Positions 25,288 through 32,917 of a stretch of 32,917 nucleotides of DNA are shown piece after piece. The DNA lies in NCBI GenBank assembly GCA_019120275.1, contig DWVL01000070.1, positions 1 to 32,917 of the forward strand. Direction: 5' to 3'. Each line of letters opens with the position of its first letter. The first letter of the stretch is position 1. The notes under the pieces are model-generated. The model was not told the DNA's origin, did no database searches, and saw nothing but the letters and a program-made list of their open reading frames with translations. The position numbers and the translations under genes were made by a program. This DNA comes from Candidatus Mediterraneibacter excrementavium (GTDB taxonomy: Bacteria > Bacillota > Clostridia > Lachnospirales > Lachnospiraceae).

Positions 25288-25963
25288 ATGGAGAAAACAA
25301 AACTACAGTGGCATCCTGCCTTTAGTGCCGCCCTACGCATCACCCTGCAGGATGAAATGAAATATCTTGAAATGCATGAGGAATATCTGCTAGCTAAAAA
25401 GCCTTTACAAATGGATGTTCTTCTCATTAAAAAAACTAAAAATGTCCAGATAGAAAAATCAATCGGACAAATATTCAGAGCACATAATATTATTGAATAC
25501 AAATCCCCGGAGAATTACCTAAGTATTAATGATTTTTATAAAGTGTACGCCTACGCCTGTCTGTATCAATCTGATACTGACAAAGTAAATGAAATTGACC
25601 CATCGATGATTACAATTACTTTTGTATGCAGTCATTATCCAAGGGAACTTTTGAGGCATCTTGCAGAAGTCCGGAACAGAGATCCGGAATCTGGTTGCAC
25701 GATATGAGCAGCACAGAAATATGAAAGATTACGAAGCTGTTATGGATCTGATTACACGCGCAAACTGGAAAGAAATGGAGGTTGAACGAAACATGTGCGA
25801 TGCATTAAAAGAACTGTTCTCTGATGAATTGGAGGAAGCAACAAACCACGGAATCATTTTGACCAAGCAGGTCTTCAAGCTCTCAGCAGATGGATTACAA
25901 CCGGATGAAATTGCGGAAAAGTGCGGTATTTCTTTGGAACAGGTAAATAAGATACTTGAATAA
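25288..25963 (+). pseudogene. Broken Rpn/PD-(D/E)XK nuclease-family-like gene
   Basis: Two overlapping frames together look like one decayed protein. The first (25288-25707) opens with KTKLQWHPAFSAALRITLQ and holds a PD-(D/E)XK-like pattern: Asp43 in QMDVLLIK, and Glu70-Tyr-Lys72 in IIEYKSPE. It stops soon after LRHLAEVR. The second, in another frame (to 25963), continues as EIRNLVARYEQHRNMKDYEAV and ends with a helix-turn-helix-like tail GLQPDEIAEKCGISLEQVNK, typical of the C-terminus of such proteins. The switch point is near 25665-25690. From memory of the family a middle segment of several tens of residues is also missing, so an internal deletion that shifts frame is more likely than a simple indel. 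Start ATG has AGGAGA upstream. Base composition is much more AT-rich than the neighbours, suggesting transfer. Confidence 0.7.
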
Positions 25964-26021: not shown

Positions 26022-26579
26022 CTATTTCTTCGAATCCAGATATGCTTTTCTTCCCTCTTCGTAAAGGTTATTGCCTTCGCTGTCGATGATGACAACCACC
26101 GGCATATCCTCCACATAGAGTTTTCTGAGAGCCTCAGCTCCGAGATCCTCGAACGCGATCAACTCCGCTTTCTTAATACATTTTGCAAGCAGTGCGCCGG
26201 CGCCGCCGATGGCCCCGAAGTACACACCGCTGTATTTCTTCATGGCTTCCACCACTTCCGGAAGACGTGCGCCTTTTCCGATCATACCGCGTGCGCCCAC
26301 AGACATCATGGTCGGTGCGTATGCATCCATACGTCCGCTTGTTGTCGGGCCTGCACTGCCGATGACATGTCCCGGTTTCGCCGGTGTCGGTCCTACATAG
26401 TAGATCGTGGCATCCTTCGGATCAAAGGGGATCTCCTCTCCTTTTGCCAGCGCCTCGCACATTCTCTTGTGTCCGGCGTCACGGGATGTGTAGATCGTTC
26501 CTGTAAGGAGCAGCTGATCTCCCGCGTGGAGTGTCTTAGCAAGTTCCTCTGTGAGTGGTAATGTGATCTTTCTTGCCAT
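26022..26579 (-). CDS. Class I (Fe-S) fumarate hydratase, beta subunit
   Basis: This is the small subunit of the oxygen-sensitive 4Fe-4S hydro-lyase that interconverts malate and fumarate; the same architecture serves L-tartrate dehydratase. The 185 residues correspond to the C-terminal domain of one-chain class I fumarases: LLTGTIYTSRDAGHKRMCEAL, YYVGPTPAKPGHVIGSAGPTTSGRMD, and GAIGGAGALLAKCI. The start ATG at 26579 directly follows the TAA of the alpha gene, with GGAGGTG inside the last alpha codons, so the two are coupled. Fumarate is preferred over tartrate because of the adjoining fumarate reductase-like genes. Confidence 0.92.
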   Translation of the reverse strand: MARKITLPLTEELAKTLHAGDQLLLTGTIYTSRDAGHKRMCEALAKGEEIPFDPKDATIYYVGPTPAKPGHVIGSAGPTTSGRMDAYAPTMMSVGARGMIGKGARLPEVVEAMKKYSGVYFGAIGGAGALLAKCIKKAELIAFEDLGAEALRKLYVEDMPVVVIIDSEGNNLYEEGRKAYLDSKK

Positions 26580-27422
26580 TTAAATCACCTCCGATTTGTG
26601 GCGTGTCACGTGGCAGTTGATATTGACTGCACAGGGCATGCCTGCGATATGGGTCGGCATTGTTTCAATATTCAGGCCGATGGCTGTCGTCTTTCCGCCG
26701 AATCCCTGCGGTCCGATGCCCAGCTCGTTCACCTTCTCCAGCATCTCTTTCTCAAGATCTGCATAGAACGGATCCGGATTGGAGGAATCAAGCGGTCTCA
26801 TGAGCGCTTTCTTCGCAAGAAGCGCACATTTGTCAAATGTACCGCCGATGCCGACGCCCACTACCATAGGCGGACACGGGTTCGGGCCTGCTGTCTCCAC
26901 TGCCTCGAGGATGAAATCCTTGATGCCCTGAAGTCCTGCTGACGGCTTGAACATACGGATCTGGCTCATGTTCTCGCTTCCGAATCCCTTCGGTCCGACC
27001 GTAACCTTGATGTTTTCGCCCGGAACGATCTCCGTATAAAGCATTGCCGGCGTATTGTCGCCTGTATTGCCGCGGCGCACCGGATCCTTTACAACAGATT
27101 TCCGCAGATATCCGTTTGTATATCCGCGGCGTACGCCCTCGTCAACCGCTTCTCTCAGGTCGCCGCCCACAAGGTGTACGTCCTGTCCGATCTCAAGGAA
27201 AACGCATGCCATACCTGTATCCTGGCAGATCGGCACGTCTTCGTTGTCCGCGATCTCGAAGTTCTCGATGATATTGTCAAGAACGCCTTTTGCGATCTCC
27301 CCGTCCTCGCATGCACGGCAGCTGCGGATGGCGCATTTTACGTCTTCCGGAAGGTGCTCGTTTGCATCGATGCACAGTCTCTCGATCACATCAGTGAGTG
27401 TACTTACATTGATTTCACGCAT
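26580..27422 (-). CDS. Class I (Fe-S) fumarate hydratase, alpha subunit
   Basis: This is the large, cluster-binding subunit (280 residues). Conserved segments are ICQDTGMACVFLEIGQDV (first cluster cysteine), RRGNTGDNTPAMLYTEIVPG, GPKGFGSENMSQIRM, NPCPPMVVGVGIGGTFDKCALLAKKAL (further cysteines) and GIGPQGFGGKTTAIGLNIE. Both halves of the enzyme are therefore present and intact. AGGAGT lies about 10 nt before the ATG. A 210-nt structured spacer separates it from the upstream exchanger gene, unlike the short gaps elsewhere in the operon. Together with the reductase downstream of malate it would feed fumarate as an electron sink. Confidence 0.93.
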   Translation of the reverse strand: MREINVSTLTDVIERLCIDANEHLPEDVKCAIRSCRACEDGEIAKGVLDNIIENFEIADNEDVPICQDTGMACVFLEIGQDVHLVGGDLREAVDEGVRRGYTNGYLRKSVVKDPVRRGNTGDNTPAMLYTEIVPGENIKVTVGPKGFGSENMSQIRMFKPSAGLQGIKDFILEAVETAGPNPCPPMVVGVGIGGTFDKCALLAKKALMRPLDSSNPDPFYADLEKEMLEKVNELGIGPQGFGGKTTAIGLNIETMPTHIAGMPCAVNINCHVTRHKSEVI

Positions 27423-27495
27423 TGGAAGTCAACTCCTTTCTAATGTTTGTTAAAATATCGTTCGGCCCGCGCCGTCCGTTCGGCACGCGCCATTC

Positions 27496-27623
27496 GCAAA
27501 GTCGCACCTGACGGTGCTTACTGCGGCTGCGCCGCTTCTTTGCTCATTCGCAGGCGCTCTGCTCATACATGGGTCTGCTCGCGAAACCATGCAAGCATGG
27601 TTTCTGCTCCCATGCCATGTATG
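27496..27623 (-). other. Highly structured intergenic element upstream of the fumarase genes
   Basis: The gap between the exchanger and fumarase alpha folds in a regular way. Part one: GCAAAG (27496-27501) pairs with CTTTGC (27538-27543) and encloses two small hairpins, GCACC/GGTGC (27504-27517) and GCGGC/GCCGC (27523-27535), giving a three-way junction. Part two: CATACATGG (27564-27572) pairs with CCATGTATG (27615-27623); then come two 10-nt unpaired sides (27573-27582 and 27605-27614) and an inner perfect stem GAAACCATGC/GCATGGTTTC (27583-27604). The hexamer CATTCG recurs at 27491 and 27545. There is no U run, so it is not a simple terminator. It may be a repetitive (REP-like) element, a processing site or a cis-regulatory leader of fumarase. 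Confidence 0.65.
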
Positions 27624-27632
27624 GCCGAACTG

Positions 27633-28802
27633 TTATAGGAAAATGCCTATAAACTGGCACGCCAGTACGACGAATACCAGCGCCACGGGGTAAGTCGCTG
27701 CATATGCGCTTGCCACGTCGTCTGTTCCGGTCACGGCGATCAGTGTTCCCAGAGCCGGTGTACTTGTCATGCCGCCGCAGATGGAGCCGAGCGTATTGAA
27801 GAGGCTCAGCTTCATGAACTTGGTTGCGACAAAGTATCCGACGATCATCGGGATCAGCGTGATCAGCGCGCCGTATACGAAGAGGATCAGTCCCTGCTCT
27901 TTGAGGATCTCGATGAAACCTGCGCCGGCCTCTACGCCCGCCCCGATCAGGAACAGTGCAAGACCGAACTCTCTCAGGCATTCGAGCACGGATTTCTCCA
28001 CATGGAAGCTGATCTTGCCCGCATGTCCGAAATGTCCAAGGATCAGGCCTGCGATCAGCGGACCGCCGGATGTTCCCAGCGAGAACTGTGCGCCGCCCGG
28101 AAGCGGGATAACGATCTTCGCCAGGATGATGCCGAGTGCGATGGCCAATGCAAATGCGAACAGGCCCATCGGATCAACATGGAACAGCTTGTCTTTCTTC
28201 TGGATATCTCCTACATTCTGAGCCGCCTCGAACTGTGCACGCTCCGCATCCATATCTGTGTGGAGAATCTTCGGCATGAGCTGTACGAACAGCACGACGC
28301 CGATCACTCCGAAGGGATAAGCAATGCCGTATCCGATGGATGCATTTGCAGAACCGGTAGCGTCAAGCGCCGCCGCAAGTCCCGGCGTACTTGTAAGGGC
28401 TCCGGACATCATTCCTACCGTGATGTCGGTCGGCACGCCTGCGATCTCGATAACACCCACGGTTGTCAGCGCACCGATGGTGATAATGATGAAGCCCAGC
28501 AGGATATAGGATTTTGCATTGATCTTAAAGTTCCGGAAGAACTTCGGCCCGGCGATAAAGCCGACGGACGTAACGAAGCAGATGAGGCCCAGGTCCTGGA
28601 ACATGCCAAGACCTTCCACCAGCGCCTCGTCGTGGCCGAGAAAATGGCCGAATACCAGAGCGACGATCAGGACGCCGGCTGTTCCCAGCTCTACGCCCTT
28701 GATCGTGATGCTTCCCACCAGGTAGCCGATGAAAGCCACCAGGAAAAGGACCATCAGCGTCTCGCTCATTACGCTCTCCTGAAACCAGTTAACTAAAAAC
28801 AT
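27633..28802 (-). CDS. AspT/YidE/YbjL-family exchanger (putative dicarboxylate or aspartate antiporter)
   Basis: This 389-residue polytopic membrane protein has two homologous halves, each with the family's re-entrant motif: GALTSTPGLAAALDATGS in the first and CGGMTSTPALGTLIAVTG in the second. Each half also carries an LGT/LGTS-type segment. The TrkA-C pair that separates the halves in AspT and YidE (about 560 residues) is missing, leaving only a short charged linker (DAERAQFEAAQNVGDIQKKDK). The family includes the aspartate:alanine antiporter. In this operon, export of succinate or exchange with fumarate, malate or aspartate is likely but inferred. Start: ATG 28802 has GGAAG 12 nt upstream and fits the family's N-terminus; the ATG at 28769 with AGGAG at 7 nt is a real alternative. 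Confidence 0.88.
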   Translation of the reverse strand: MFLVNWFQESVMSETLMVLFLVAFIGYLVGSITIKGVELGTAGVLIVALVFGHFLGHDEALVEGLGMFQDLGLICFVTSVGFIAGPKFFRNFKINAKSYILLGFIIITIGALTTVGVIEIAGVPTDITVGMMSGALTSTPGLAAALDATGSANASIGYGIAYPFGVIGVVLFVQLMPKILHTDMDAERAQFEAAQNVGDIQKKDKLFHVDPMGLFAFALAIALGIILAKIVIPLPGGAQFSLGTSGGPLIAGLILGHFGHAGKISFHVEKSVLECLREFGLALFLIGAGVEAGAGFIEILKEQGLILFVYGALITLIPMIVGYFVATKFMKLSLFNTLGSICGGMTSTPALGTLIAVTGTDDVASAYAATYPVALVFVVLACQFIGIFL

Positions 28803-28821
28803 GTTGTGTTACTCTTCCTTT

Positions 28822-30423
28822 CTATCTCTCGTGTCTCGCATATTTCGGAAGGATCAGCGGAGATACGTCTCCTGTGCTTAATCCTGCGTCTTTCAGCTCT
28901 TCCGCATATGCTTCGATGTGATCCAGGTTCATATTGCCCAGTTCCACATTTTTTGCTTTGGCCGCTGCAGCCTTACCTGCATTGCGTCCGAATACGATGA
29001 TATCAAGGAGAGAGTTGCCCATCAGACGGTTTCTTCCGTGGATGCCGCCGACAGCCTCGCCTGCAACGAGCAGGTTATCGATGACTTTTGTAAAGCCGTC
29101 TCCTCCGATCTCAAGTCCGCCGTTCTGATAGTGAAGGGTCGGGTAGATGAGGATCGGAAGTTTTCTCATATCGATATCATAGTTCATGTACATACGCAGC
29201 ATCGCCGGGATGCGCTTCTCGATCGTTCCCGGTCCGCCCAGCATCTCGATCATCGGCGTATCAAGCCATACGCCGCTTCCGAGCGGTGTGGTCACGCCTT
29301 TGCCGCGCGCCGTACACTCACGGATAATGGATGCCGCAGCCACGTCACGGGTCTCAAGCGGATGCATGAATGCCTCGCCGTCCACGTTGACAAGCTGTGC
29401 GCCTACAGAACGTACCTTCTCTGTAACCAGTGCGCCGAAGATCTGTGACGGGAATGCCACGCCTGTCGGGTGATACTGGATCGTATCCTGGTAAAGGAGC
29501 GGTGCCCCCAGACGGTATCCGAGGATCAGGCCGTCTGCCGTCGCGCCGTAATGGTTGGATGTCGGGAATCCCTGGTAGTGCATACGTCCCGCACCGCCTG
29601 TGGCGATGATGACGGTTTTCGCTTTTGCAACCAGGTAATCGTCTGTCTCCAGGTTCTGGAGAACCGCACCCGCAACCTGTCCTCTGTCGTCTTTAATAAG
29701 TTCTACCGCAGCCGTAAATTCAACGACCGGGATCTGACGGTTCAGGACTTCGTCGCGAAGAGTACGCATGATCTCTGCTCCGGAGTAATCCTTGCAGGCA
29801 TGCATTCTCTTTCTGGATGTTCCGCCGCCGTGTGTGGTGATCATACGGCCCGTCTCATCCTTGTCGAACATAACGCCCAGTTCATTGAGCCATTTGATGG
29901 CGTCCGGCGCTTCCATGACAAGACGTCTTAAAAGCTCCGGCCTTGCAGCGAAATGTCCGCCGCCGAATGCGTCCAGGTAGTGCTGTACCGGAGAGTCGTT
30001 CTCTTTGTCTGCAGCCTGGATGCCGCCCTCTGCCATCATCGTGTTGGCATCGCCGATACGGAGTTTTGTCACAATCATAACGTTGGCGCCTGCCTCATTT
30101 GCCTCGATTGCTGCGGAAGCTCCCGCTCCGCCGCCGCCGATCACGAGAACGTCCACGTCATAATCCACTTTGCTGATATCTACTTTGTCTGTGAGCAGAC
30201 GGCTGTTGGAGTGGAGAAGATGTACCAGCTCCCTCGGCGCTTTCTGCCCTTTGTTCGGTCCTACCTTGATCTCCGCGAATGCGTCTTCCTTGTAATCAGG
30301 ATGGAACTCCTTAAGGAGAGCATCTTTCTCATCCGCAGTCATACGTCTCGGTTCAACGCCCAGACGCGCTTCTCTGGTGGCCTCCACTTTCTTAACGGAT
30401 TCCATCATTTCCGGTGTAAACAT
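28822..30423 (-). CDS. FrdA/TfrA-like fumarate reductase flavoprotein with non-covalent FAD
   Basis: This is a 533-residue flavoprotein of the fumarate reductase/succinate dehydrogenase family. After a 90-residue N-terminal extension comes the FAD-binding VLVIGGGGAGASAAIEA, then ANTMMAEGGIQAA at about 126-138. E. coli FrdA has SHTVAAEGG here; the histidine that binds FAD covalently is Asn127. Substrate-site residues are kept: YHPTG (His318), the arginine in ETRDVAAAS (359), LHYQNGG (His431) and HGRNRLMGNSLL. AGGAGG lies 8 nt before the ATG. The gene sits between the Fe-S subunit and the exchanger. L-aspartate oxidase also has non-covalent FAD, but the Fe-S partner and fumarase favour fumarate reduction. 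Confidence 0.88.
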   Translation of the reverse strand: MFTPEMMESVKKVEATREARLGVEPRRMTADEKDALLKEFHPDYKEDAFAEIKVGPNKGQKAPRELVHLLHSNSRLLTDKVDISKVDYDVDVLVIGGGGAGASAAIEANEAGANVMIVTKLRIGDANTMMAEGGIQAADKENDSPVQHYLDAFGGGHFAARPELLRRLVMEAPDAIKWLNELGVMFDKDETGRMITTHGGGTSRKRMHACKDYSGAEIMRTLRDEVLNRQIPVVEFTAAVELIKDDRGQVAGAVLQNLETDDYLVAKAKTVIIATGGAGRMHYQGFPTSNHYGATADGLILGYRLGAPLLYQDTIQYHPTGVAFPSQIFGALVTEKVRSVGAQLVNVDGEAFMHPLETRDVAAASIIRECTARGKGVTTPLGSGVWLDTPMIEMLGGPGTIEKRIPAMLRMYMNYDIDMRKLPILIYPTLHYQNGGLEIGGDGFTKVIDNLLVAGEAVGGIHGRNRLMGNSLLDIIVFGRNAGKAAAAKAKNVELGNMNLDHIEAYAEELKDAGLSTGDVSPLILPKYARHER

Positions 30424-30435
30424 GATCTTCCCTCC

Positions 30436-31110
30436 TTATTTCTCGATCTCTCTGTTGTTGTAAAGTTCCTGCATCTCTTCGATCGGCTTCTCCATGATCT
30501 GCTCAATGAGCTGGTCATACTCGCCGTGGTGGATCTCCTCAACACGCGCGGTCAGGTGTTTGGACTCCGGCGCGATGTATTTTCCTGTGAGACGTCTTGC
30601 AAGGACTCCGACCATCGGGTGGGAGATCTCTGCCGGACATCTTACGGAACAGCATCCGCATCCGATACAGTCGAAGGACTCTTCCGCACACTTCTCGAAC
30701 TCGCCGCGCTGTGCGTAGGCAATGTACTGCATGACGTTCAGGTCCTGTGTGCAGGCCTTCGTGCAGGCGTTACAGCCGATGCAGCTGTAGATTTCCGGAT
30801 AGAGGTCCATCATGATGCGCTGCTCCGGTTTCACTTCATTAATGTCGTAGGTTCTCTTGTCTGTCGGGAAGAACGGGATGCTTGCCACATACATGCCCTC
30901 TTCTACCTGTGTCTGACAGGCCAGGCATGTCTTCAGCTCATTCTTACCTTTGATCCTGTAGATCGTCGCGCAGGCACCGCAGAAACCGTGACGGCAGCCG
31001 CATCCTCTTTTCAGTGTATAACCCGCATATTCCATCGCTGTCATAATCGTCAGGTCTGCCGGCACACTGTATTTCTTACCGAAAAAATATACATTTACCA
31101 TCTTTTCCAT
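30436..31110 (-). CDS. Fumarate reductase-type iron-sulfur subunit (2Fe-2S plus two 4Fe-4S)
   Basis: This is an electron-transfer subunit of 224 residues. The plant-type 2Fe-2S domain has Cys39, Cys44, Cys47 and Cys62 (CRHGFCGAC ... TCLACQ). A dicluster domain follows with CIGCNACTKAC (110-120) and CIGCGCCSVRCP (148-159). SdhB/FrdB proteins carry one 4Fe-4S and one 3Fe-4S cluster in their C-terminal half; here both motifs have four cysteines, so two 4Fe-4S clusters are likely. The heterodisulfide-reductase-like CCG domain fused to TfrB of methanogens is absent. No quinone-binding partner is encoded nearby. Start ATG 31110 has AGGAAG about 9 nt upstream. It lies 17 bp after the flavin subunit gene and 12 bp before the FrdA-like gene. 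Confidence 0.9.
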   Translation of the reverse strand: MEKMVNVYFFGKKYSVPADLTIMTAMEYAGYTLKRGCGCRHGFCGACATIYRIKGKNELKTCLACQTQVEEGMYVASIPFFPTDKRTYDINEVKPEQRIMMDLYPEIYSCIGCNACTKACTQDLNVMQYIAYAQRGEFEKCAEESFDCIGCGCCSVRCPAEISHPMVGVLARRLTGKYIAPESKHLTARVEEIHHGEYDQLIEQIMEKPIEEMQELYNNREIEK

Positions 31111-31127
31111 GATATTTCTTCCTTTCC

Positions 31128-31982
31128 CTAGTACTCATTCGGCATCTCATCGATCTCATCGCAACGAAATACCGGGCCGTCTTTACATACATATTTTGAT
31201 CCGATGTTGCATCTGCCGCACTTTCCGATGCCGCATTTCATACGAAGCTCCAGCGTCGTGTAGACCTGATCTCTGGAGAATCCCAGTTCTTCCAGTCCGG
31301 CCAGCGTGAACTTGATCATGATCGGAGGTCCGCAGATCAGCGCCGTCTTGTTTACATCGAAGCCAAGCTCCTTCACATAGTTCGGCACGAATCCCACATG
31401 GCCGTCCCATCCTTCCTGCTCGCGGTCGATGGTCAGGTGGACATGCACATCCGGTGCATTCATCCACACTTCCTGGATCTCCTTTAACTGTACCAGGTCG
31501 TCTGCGGAACGTGAACCGTATACGATGTCCACGGTGCCGTAGTCGTCACGGTTGTCCAGCACATAGTTGATCACGGAACGAAGCGGCGCAAGGCCGATAC
31601 CGCCAGCGATGAACAGCAGGTCTTTGCCTTTGAGCTTGTCCTCTACCGGGAAATGATTGCCGTACGGTCCGCGGACAGTGATCTCATCGCCCACTTCCAG
31701 GCTGTGGAGATAATCTGTGAGCATTCCGCACTTCTTAATGCTGAACTCCTGGTATTCTTTGTTGGTCGGCGAAGAAGTAATCGAAAACATACCCTCGCTG
31801 ATCCCCGGCGCACAGAGCATCGCGCACTGTCCCGGCATATGCTCGAAGAGCTTGCCGCCTTCCGGCGCATTGACACGGAATGTCTTAACGTCCGGCGTCT
31901 CCTCGCGGATATCTGTGATCACACCTACCTTCGGGATCAGGGTATCCAGTGTATAGTTCTTATGGCATGTACATTCACTCAT
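31128..31982 (-). CDS. FAD/NAD(P)-binding electron-input subunit (hydrogenase gamma / AsrB-like)
   Basis: This 284-residue protein has ferredoxin-NADP reductase architecture: an FAD-binding barrel (MPGQCAMLCAPGISEGMFSITSSP), an NAD(P)-binding lobe (LLFIAGGIGLAPLRSVINY, VYGSRSADDLV, ALICGPPIMIKFTL), and a C-terminal DHODB-type 2Fe-2S site with Cys250, Cys255, Cys258 and Cys266 (MKCGIGKCGRCNIGSKYVC). This is the layout of the gamma subunit of archaeal sulfhydrogenase and of AsrB of anaerobic sulfite reductase. It should bring electrons from NADH or NADPH to the Fe-S subunits. The ATG shares one base with the stop of the upstream gene (TAATG), with GGAGGTG ahead, so the pair is coupled. Confidence 0.9.
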   Translation of the reverse strand: MSECTCHKNYTLDTLIPKVGVITDIREETPDVKTFRVNAPEGGKLFEHMPGQCAMLCAPGISEGMFSITSSPTNKEYQEFSIKKCGMLTDYLHSLEVGDEITVRGPYGNHFPVEDKLKGKDLLFIAGGIGLAPLRSVINYVLDNRDDYGTVDIVYGSRSADDLVQLKEIQEVWMNAPDVHVHLTIDREQEGWDGHVGFVPNYVKELGFDVNKTALICGPPIMIKFTLAGLEELGFSRDQVYTTLELRMKCGIGKCGRCNIGSKYVCKDGPVFRCDEIDEMPNEY

Positions 31983-32917
31983 TACTTTTCACCTCCCCTT
32001 TTTGCAAATGCTTTGATCACCTTCACGATGTTCAGGGATTCCGGACATTTCTCTACACAGCGGCCGCAGCCTACGCAGGAGTACATCCCGTCGTTATTCG
32101 CCGGGAAGTATACAAGCTTGTGCATGAATCTCTGGCGGAATCTTTCTTTCTGTGACTTACGGTTGTTGCCGTGGGCCATCATCGTGAAGTCTGAGTACAT
32201 ACAGGAATCCCAGCAGCGGTATCTCTGCACGCCGTTCTTTCCTGTATCATAATCTTTGATATCGTAGCACTGGCATGTGGGGCACACAAATGTACAGGTG
32301 CCGCATGCAAGGCACGGTTTGTAGAGTTCATCCCACAGCGGGTCCTCGAATTTCTCCATCAGGACGTCGCCGTTCCATCCCTCCAGGGAGAGGTGGGTGT
32401 ACGGAAGCTGCTCCACGATGCCGCGGATCGCTTCTTTTTCTTTCTCTACCGTCTCATCTGCGCTTCCGTCCTCTGTGAGCACGTCTTTCACAGCCTCTGT
32501 CAGCGCCTCGCCCTTCTCAGTGAGCGGTTTCCAGTACAGTTCATCTCCGATGAGCCAGGTTGCGACGTCTGCCGCCGGCTCTGCCGCATCGATGCCGAAC
32601 ACCTTGCAGAAGCAGGTCTCTTCCGGCTCGTGGCAGGCAAGGGCTACGATCGTGCCGTGGTCGCGTCTCGCCGCATAGAATGTATCCAGCGGGTCAACGA
32701 GGAACACTTTATCCAACACTTCCACACCTCTCACATCGCAGGCTCTCATGCCGAACACAACGAAGTTCTGCTCTTTTAACGCCTCCGGCGTCACGCTGAT
32801 CTTCTTCCCTTCCTTCACGCAGGTGTAAAGCGTCTCACTCTGCGGGAAGAACGCGTCTTTCGGAGATTTGACCGTCTTGAGCGTATCAATGTCCACATCC
32901 GCCCCTTCCGTCCAGGC
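31982..32917 (-). CDS. 4Fe-4S dicluster electron-transfer protein (hydrogenase beta / AsrA-like), 5' end outside the window
   Basis: The reading frame is open to the right edge; codons before the GTG at 32896 still encode a sensible protein (AWTEGADVDIDTLK), so the true start lies beyond 32917. The visible 311 residues contain FGMRACDVRGVEVLDKVF and ACHEPEETCFCKVFG, both typical of the beta subunit of sulfhydrogenases and of AsrA, then two ferredoxin motifs: CLACGTCTFVCPTCQC and CVGCGRCVEKCPES. Such proteins relay electrons between the gamma-type flavoprotein and the catalytic unit. No hydrogenase or sulfite reductase catalytic subunit follows; a fumarate reductase does. Genes further right may add more subunits. 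Confidence 0.9.
   Translation of the reverse strand, partial: AWTEGADVDIDTLKTVKSPKDAFFPQSETLYTCVKEGKKISVTPEALKEQNFVVFGMRACDVRGVEVLDKVFLVDPLDTFYAARRDHGTIVALACHEPEETCFCKVFGIDAAEPAADVATWLIGDELYWKPLTEKGEALTEAVKDVLTEDGSADETVEKEKEAIRGIVEQLPYTHLSLEGWNGDVLMEKFEDPLWDELYKPCLACGTCTFVCPTCQCYDIKDYDTGKNGVQRYRCWDSCMYSDFTMMAHGNNRKSQKERFRQRFMHKLVYFPANNDGMYSCVGCGRCVEKCPESLNIVKVIKAFAKRGGEK

Follow-up and report, generated by a model that had tools for sequence, protein, structure and literature searches.

A soluble, probably bifurcating fumarate reductase predicted from a conserved Flx–Hdr–Frd operon of Candidatus Mediterraneibacter excrementavium

From where does a fumarate reductase encoded with no membrane anchor draw its electrons? 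The question is raised by a minus-strand operon at the right end of contig DWVL01000070.1 of Candidatus Mediterraneibacter excrementavium. This 32,917-nucleotide stretch (the window) is the whole of contig C63 in a 2.16-Mb, 96-contig metagenome-assembled genome (MAG) that is 86% complete. A first-pass annotation took two of the encoded proteins, beta and gamma, for a stand-alone sulfhydrogenase-like input module. It could not see the Hdr genes because the window stops at the contig end, inside the beta gene. The window contains the 3′ half of an Ldh–HdrB–HdrC–HdrA–FlxD–FlxC–FlxB–FlxA–FrdB–FrdA–(AspT)–FumA–FumB operon, and the predicted identity of beta/gamma is FlxB/FlxA of a complete FlxABCD–HdrABC set, not a sulfhydrogenase-type pair. 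We favor, with reasonable though far from full confidence, the reading that the operon encodes a soluble fumarate reductase that depends on NADH, is coupled to Flx–Hdr, and probably bifurcates. All seven minus-strand open reading frames previously named in the window are in place and belong to the families given for them:

26022–26579, minus strand: FumB, beta subunit of class I (Fe-S) fumarate hydratase (PF05683, Fumerase_C, 203 bits; PRK06842 over cut-off)
26580–27422, minus strand: FumA, alpha subunit of class I fumarate hydratase (PF05681, Fumerase, 393 bits; PRK06246 over cut-off)
27633–28802, minus strand: AspT-family exchanger, 389 residues, both membrane halves (PF06826, Asp-Al_Ex, in two stretches)
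28822–30423, minus strand: FrdA, soluble fumarate reductase flavoprotein, 533 residues (FAD_binding_2; residue alignment)
30436–31110, minus strand: FrdB, electron-transfer subunit, 224 residues (2Fe-2S plus 4Fe-4S dicluster; ligands for a 2Fe-2S and two 4Fe-4S clusters)
31128–31982, minus strand: FlxA (gamma), subunit with FAD/NAD(P)-binding and Fe-S domains, probably where NADH enters (PF00175, PF00970, PF10418, the DHODB Fe-S domain)
31982–32917, minus strand: FlxB (beta), Fe-S subunit of the dicluster type, cut short where the contig stops (PF17179)

The upstream half of the operon lies outside the window, on contig C61 of the same genome (L117). Specifically, Ldh–HdrB–HdrC–HdrA–FlxD–FlxC–FlxB(1–234) reach the end of C61, which thereby adds six further genes and the start of the FlxB gene; the window copy of FlxB lacks ~35 N-terminal residues by comparison with its nearest relative. 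The ends of the window and C61 overlap by ~599 bases at 88% identity. Most simply, these are two strain variants of one locus, with a duplication as the alternative; HdrA and FrdB each give one strong match in the MAG. Among the relatives described below, three genomes carry two FrdB loci each on separate contigs (L009/L019, L043/L045, and L067/L068), representing either strain variants or duplicated operons. Read through C61 and the relatives, the operon genes to the right of the window include no hydrogenase, sulfite reductase, or FrdC/D gene, any of which the first-pass annotation would have taken as refuting it if paired with beta/gamma; they do include another partner for beta/gamma, namely HdrABC–FlxCD.

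The evidence from relatives is extensive. FrdB retrieved 288 candidate stretches from a genome contig database, and the best 80 were taken, mostly labeled as Lachnospiraceae genera or unplaced Clostridia/Eubacteriales, with two labeled Oscillospiraceae. The nearest retrieved relative, from Candidatus Mediterraneibacter merdipullorum (L004), has a 100% identical FrdB and, across most of the operon, a nucleotide identity of ~95%. Because there are 288 such stretches and the beta–gamma–FrdB–FrdA order recurs among the best 80, the seven-gene arrangement in the window is not a product of chance. In all 66 relatives whose sequence extends 7.6 kb or more upstream of FrdB, the order HdrB, HdrC, HdrA, FlxD, a 324-residue dicluster protein (FlxC), beta, gamma is the same, and a lactate dehydrogenase gene heads the operon in 63. 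The genes are tightly packed, with median gaps in bases of −10 (HdrA to FlxD), −13 (FlxD to FlxC), 3 (FlxC to beta), −1 (beta to gamma), 26 (gamma to FrdB), and 12 (FrdB to FrdA). Thus, it is the adjoining HdrB–HdrC–HdrA–FlxD–FlxC genes, present on C61 and in each of these 66 relatives, that identify beta/gamma as FlxB/FlxA. All seven FlxABCD–HdrABC subunits are encoded together in those relatives and, across C61 and the window, in the organism's own genome. FlxABCD–HdrABC is a module thought to bifurcate electrons.

The individual subunits are consistent with this assignment. HdrA aligns over its full length with the bifurcating HdrA 5odc_A (686 bits, 50% identity) and retains 28 of 31 aligned cysteines. 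Many Bacillota HdrA genes (e.g., G013, G261, and G098) contain one in-frame TGA, which suggests a selenocysteine HdrA; the HdrA gene of the window's organism has none. HdrB carries two CCG motifs, at 9–80 and 152–231, and scores 129.8 bits against the B subunit of a heterodisulfide reductase. FlxD has a PF02662 match (in the L065 sequence). The 324-residue protein shows just general Fe-S domain matches and is a homolog of FlxB by hhalign profile comparison (97.9%); position, size, and this homology are what predict it to be FlxC. The closest solved relative of FlxA is the sulfhydrogenase 1 gamma subunit 9nez_C (198 bits). AlphaFold models of FlxC and FrdA, with mean pLDDT values of 55 and 58, were not used.

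What, then, is the terminal enzyme? The top NCBIfam matches of FrdA are TfrA, SdhA/FrdA, and NadB models, and each of the 25 matches displayed lies under its cut-off. FrdA has an N-terminal extension of ~85 residues, such that the SdhA/FrdA alignment starts at about residue 88, and it does not have the C-terminal helical part of SdhA/FrdA. Its residues H318, T334, E335, R359, H431, and R466 align with E. coli FrdA H232, T244, E245, R287, H355, and R390 (mature numbering), which we take to be the substrate, proton-donor, or dicarboxylate-binding positions. The same six residues occur in NadB, and so by themselves they cannot tell FrdA from NadB. The position of the covalent-FAD histidine is occupied by N127; in E. 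coli, that histidine matters more for succinate oxidation than for fumarate reduction. In FrdB, C151 replaces a valine of E. coli FrdB, and because of this replacement the third cluster can, by prediction, be a 4Fe-4S cluster. A Val-to-Cys change converts that cluster in E. coli FrdB. A quinol:fumarate reductase (FrdABCD/Sdh) was rejected given N127 at the histidine position and C151 in place of the E. coli valine. No FrdC/D-like gene is present among the operon genes, the part of the genome searched for one, in agreement with the soluble, anchorless enzyme envisaged by the first-pass annotation.

Fumarate is suggested as the substrate by a distant version of the operon. A search for similar records, restricted to plasmids, returned seven matching plasmid records, the best of which was plasmid pILYOP01 of Ilyobacter polytropus (Fusobacteriota; L144). 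This plasmid encodes HdrBCA–FlxDCBA–FrdBA, nine genes in the same order and at 42–69% identity, preceded by an aspartate ammonia-lyase gene and followed by aminotransferase and TRAP transporter genes. Aspartate ammonia-lyase yields fumarate. The fumarate-forming enzyme varies (fumarase in one case, aspartase in the other) while the nine-gene unit stays, which is the best indirect evidence that fumarate is what the enzyme reduces. In the organism's own MAG, a malic enzyme domain and RnfC are present, and aspA is not found over cut-off.

Building on the established gene content, order, conservation, co-occurrence, and active-site and cluster residues, we infer a single complex that bifurcates, operates in the direction of succinate, uses NADH over NADPH, and has HdrB in direct contact with FrdB. 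FumAB would supply fumarate from malate. FlxA would accept hydride from NADH, and FlxB, FlxC, and FlxD would pass electrons to the HdrA flavin. There, HdrA would probably bifurcate them: one branch would lead via the HdrA ferredoxin domains to ferredoxin, and the other via HdrC/HdrB to FrdB and FrdA, where fumarate would be reduced to succinate. Two observations support the direct HdrB–FrdB step: the TfrB model matches FrdB with its N-terminal part and HdrB with its C-terminal part, and there are loci that hold FrdAB with HdrBC and FumAB only. The net reaction would be 2 NADH + fumarate + Fd(ox) → 2 NAD+ + succinate + Fd(red, 2 e−). Ferredoxin (Fd) potentials are about −420 to −500 mV. The potentials of the fumarate and NAD couples are given as +33 mV and −320 mV, respectively (PMC5861303). 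The net bifurcating reaction would be exergonic by roughly 33–49 kJ per mol, and the reduced ferredoxin could feed Rnf or a hydrogenase. Sequence and context agree with the first-pass annotation on an NAD(P)H-fed enzyme with fumarate as the likely acceptor, and bifurcation, which it raised as a possibility, is now the probable mode.

Gene co-occurrence, which the first-pass annotation proposed to look for, extends the linkage beyond the retrieved relatives. Among 250 genomes of the window's family, one per genus, FrdB occurs in 24, HdrA in 27, and both in 24 (Fisher p 1.6e-30, a value that overstates independence, the genomes being related). In one of the 24, FrdB is represented by a fragment of 57 residues at the edge of a contig. 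Of the 24 genomes, 21 have the two genes on a single contig and within 10 kb, at a spacing of 3.5–5.5 kb, and one of the remaining three is the window's own genome. The three genomes that have HdrA and no FrdB carry a more distant HdrA (54–56%). Across 398 genomes of the phylum, FrdB is found in 39, HdrA in 141, and both in 35; a hand count over the 38 other FrdB genomes gave at least 14 in which no more than 10 kb separates HdrA from FrdB. We read 16 of those 38 loci gene by gene. Four hold FrdAB with complete Hdr and Flx sets, one (L128) holds an incomplete or rearranged set that lacks FlxA, and two are the loci with HdrBC and FumAB only. In an FrdA tree of 27 rows (10 chosen Lachnospiraceae loci, the 16 outside loci, and E. 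coli), the Hdr–Flx-linked FrdA proteins, L128 included, fall into three clusters, requiring at least three changes on well supported branches. The linkage may have arisen several times, with a single gain followed by losses as the alternative; the root of the tree is unsure, the E. coli branch being very long.

Several observations weigh against the favored reading. In the remaining nine of the 16 outside FrdAB loci, the stretch read contains neither HdrA nor HdrB (a weak HdrC-like match occurs in L132, and L118 starts 2.9 kb from FrdB at a contig end), and four of the 39 FrdB genomes of the phylum have no HdrA at E≤1e-100. By these cases, FrdAB can draw electrons from elsewhere than Hdr, as a core to which different electron inputs are joined. 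Of the nine loci, three have malic enzyme and FumAB genes and one has a pyruvate carboxylase gene, contexts that, with the two HdrBC–FumAB loci, count in favor of the reading; L120 and L125 combine FrdAB with FumAB and FMN-binding/ferredoxin or multihaem (NapC-type) cytochrome genes, perhaps the same FrdAB core in a membrane-linked form; and in L126, L132, and L133 no fumarate-making gene was recognized among the genes matched. RnfC is present in 21 of the 24 FrdB genomes of the family versus 213 of 250 overall, which is no enrichment, and so no specific ferredoxin sink is indicated and Rnf was rejected as the specific partner. The similarity of HdrA to 5odc is no proof of bifurcation. In this organism, the operon is divided between two contigs with an overlap just 88% identical, so its contiguity rests on the relatives. 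The first gene fits a predicted lactate dehydrogenase, not a malate dehydrogenase: it passes both lactate dehydrogenase cut-offs, scores slightly below the PRK06223 malate dehydrogenase cut-off (278.8 versus 283), and has a KPGQTR motif whose glutamine presumably occupies the position of an arginine in malate dehydrogenases. Finally, in tubeworm symbionts the expression pattern of tfrAB differs from that of the rest of the Hdr–Flx cluster (PMC11636981).

These points bear unequally on the rival explanations. A non-bifurcating soluble NADH:fumarate reductase, in which Flx–Hdr–Frd disposes of NADH and HdrA serves as an electron wire, is a minority possibility. NADH-driven fumarate reduction is strongly favorable by itself, and the nine outside loci with no HdrA or HdrB gene in the part read are compatible with it, but a full-length HdrA with conserved cysteines plus a complete FlxABCD, kept in 66 of 66 relatives, would be costly as a mere wire. 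It is rather unlikely that Hdr–Flx reduces a small or protein disulfide whose dithiol then feeds FrdAB, in the manner of thiol:fumarate reductase. Both CCG motifs are present in HdrB, the TfrB model joins FrdB-like and HdrB-like parts, and Hdr–Flx of Desulfovibrio has been proposed to act on DsrC (PMC10920352); yet FrdB lacks the CCG part, and no DsrC-like gene is present among the identified operon genes, to which the search for DsrC was confined.

Operation in reverse, by confurcation, with succinate oxidation or NAD+ reduction with ferredoxin electrons, has been proposed in the sense that Desulfovibrio Hdr–Flx may run in both directions (PMC10920352). We regard it as very improbable here, given N127 in place of the covalent-FAD histidine and neighboring genes that form fumarate. 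Scarcely credible is an FrdA that acts as L-aspartate oxidase or on another substrate: NadB models do match it and no NadB exceeds its cut-off in the MAG, which is 86% complete, but the match scores 248 bits where the cut-off is 452.75, NadB Glu121, which we take to be functionally important, aligns with Gly199, and fumarate-making genes occur in the context in two phyla. Against these rivals, we continue to favor the bifurcating NADH-dependent fumarate reductase. A bolder form of it, to which we give about even weight, is that nine-subunit cytosolic HdrABC–FlxABCD–FrdAB is a true bifurcating NADH:ferredoxin/fumarate oxidoreductase, that FrdAB serves it as a plug-in acceptor of high potential, attached several times in evolution to the Hdr scaffold, and that about a tenth of the genera in the Lachnospiraceae-like family thereby gain reduced ferredoxin, and through it Rnf energy, from quinone-free succinate formation.

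The AspT-type exchanger, with a predicted transport role, is an accessory whose presence and place in the operon vary. Of the 68 relatives whose downstream sequence spans 6 kb or more, 27 have it between FrdA and FumA and nine have it after FumB, while a search of the operon strand gave none in 32; in L079, one of the 80 relatives, it is on the opposite strand. No TrkA_C match lies between its membrane halves. In other genomes, a more distant version (~50% identity) substitutes for it or comes after FumB. Past the operon end, at 25288–25963 on the plus strand, two overlapping open reading frames in different frames, with no Pfam match over cut-off, could be one broken gene.

If the proposal is correct, gut fermenters would save energy from fumarate reduction via cytoplasmic ferredoxin, the accounting of ATP and redox equivalents for succinate formation would change in genera such as Blautia and Mediterraneibacter, and fumarate would join the high-potential acceptors of Hdr-type bifurcation. 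Blautia parvula (L036) and Ilyobacter polytropus (L144) are strains that carry the genes, making the question testable.

The first-pass annotation knew of no characterized complex of this composition. With respect to biochemistry, that holds within the portion of the open-access literature examined, in which we found neither biochemical proof of such a complex nor a paper using "bifurcating fumarate reductase"; the extracts of PMC6776011, PMC8578096, and PMC9044749 contain nothing on a Frd–Hdr–Flx arrangement, and "flx" in PMC12918512 refers to a sequencing machine. The arrangement itself has been described and bifurcation proposed (PMC7282089, PMC6315080). The window operon is thus a further case of an arrangement already proposed elsewhere, of a biochemically unproven kind. 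Added here are the conservation of the nine genes as a fixed unit, both in Lachnospiraceae-like genomes and in Ilyobacter, their tight co-occurrence, and the evidence of module swaps; a 2019 preprint cited by PMC7282089 may already list Lachnospiraceae.

FlxABCD–HdrABC of Desulfovibrio vulgaris was reportedly described by Ramos in 2015. The subunits are the same as here, and the tabulated values of 31.0 for FlxA, 39.4 for FlxB, and 54.1 for an FlxCD fusion, taken as kDa, fit the sizes here, FlxC versus the fusion included; the D. vulgaris system is linked to alcohol dehydrogenase and DsrC, whereas Hdr–Flx here is tied to FrdAB (PMC10920352). AsrAB and the sulfhydrogenase beta/gamma subunits are homologous to FlxB and FlxA. 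FlxA resembles HydG/ShyC/AsrB and FlxB resembles ShyB/HydB/AsrA, but both score under these equivalog cut-offs, and the operon, the part of the genome searched, has no sulfite reductase or NiFe hydrogenase gene; AsrABC and sulfhydrogenase were rejected accordingly. Methanogen TfrAB is likewise related, TfrA being the best NCBIfam match of FrdA and parts of the TfrB model matching FrdB and HdrB, but was rejected as an identity: TfrA scores 324.8 against 718 bits, TfrB scores 33.9 against 385 bits, and FrdB has no CCG match. In tubeworm symbionts and Thioflavicoccus, as here, fumarate reductase genes (tfrAB) are interspersed with flxABCD–hdrABC, and direct electron transfer has been proposed; those clusters serve the reductive tricarboxylic acid (rTCA) cycle of carbon-fixing Gammaproteobacteria with OGOR, whereas this is a fermenter operon with fumarase (PMC6315080, PMC11636981). 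In the thermophile Pseudoclostridium thermosuccinogenes, the "succinate operon" likewise unites fumarate hydratase, Flx–Hdr, fumarate reductase, and a possible transporter. Its fumarate reduction was proposed to be linked to ferredoxin reduction, and its expression was ~4-fold higher under CO2 limitation, though not significantly for all subunits (PMC7282089). Compared by description only, the operon here differs from it in having Ldh in front (63 of 66 relatives), two-subunit FumAB behind, and, in some genomes, AspT.

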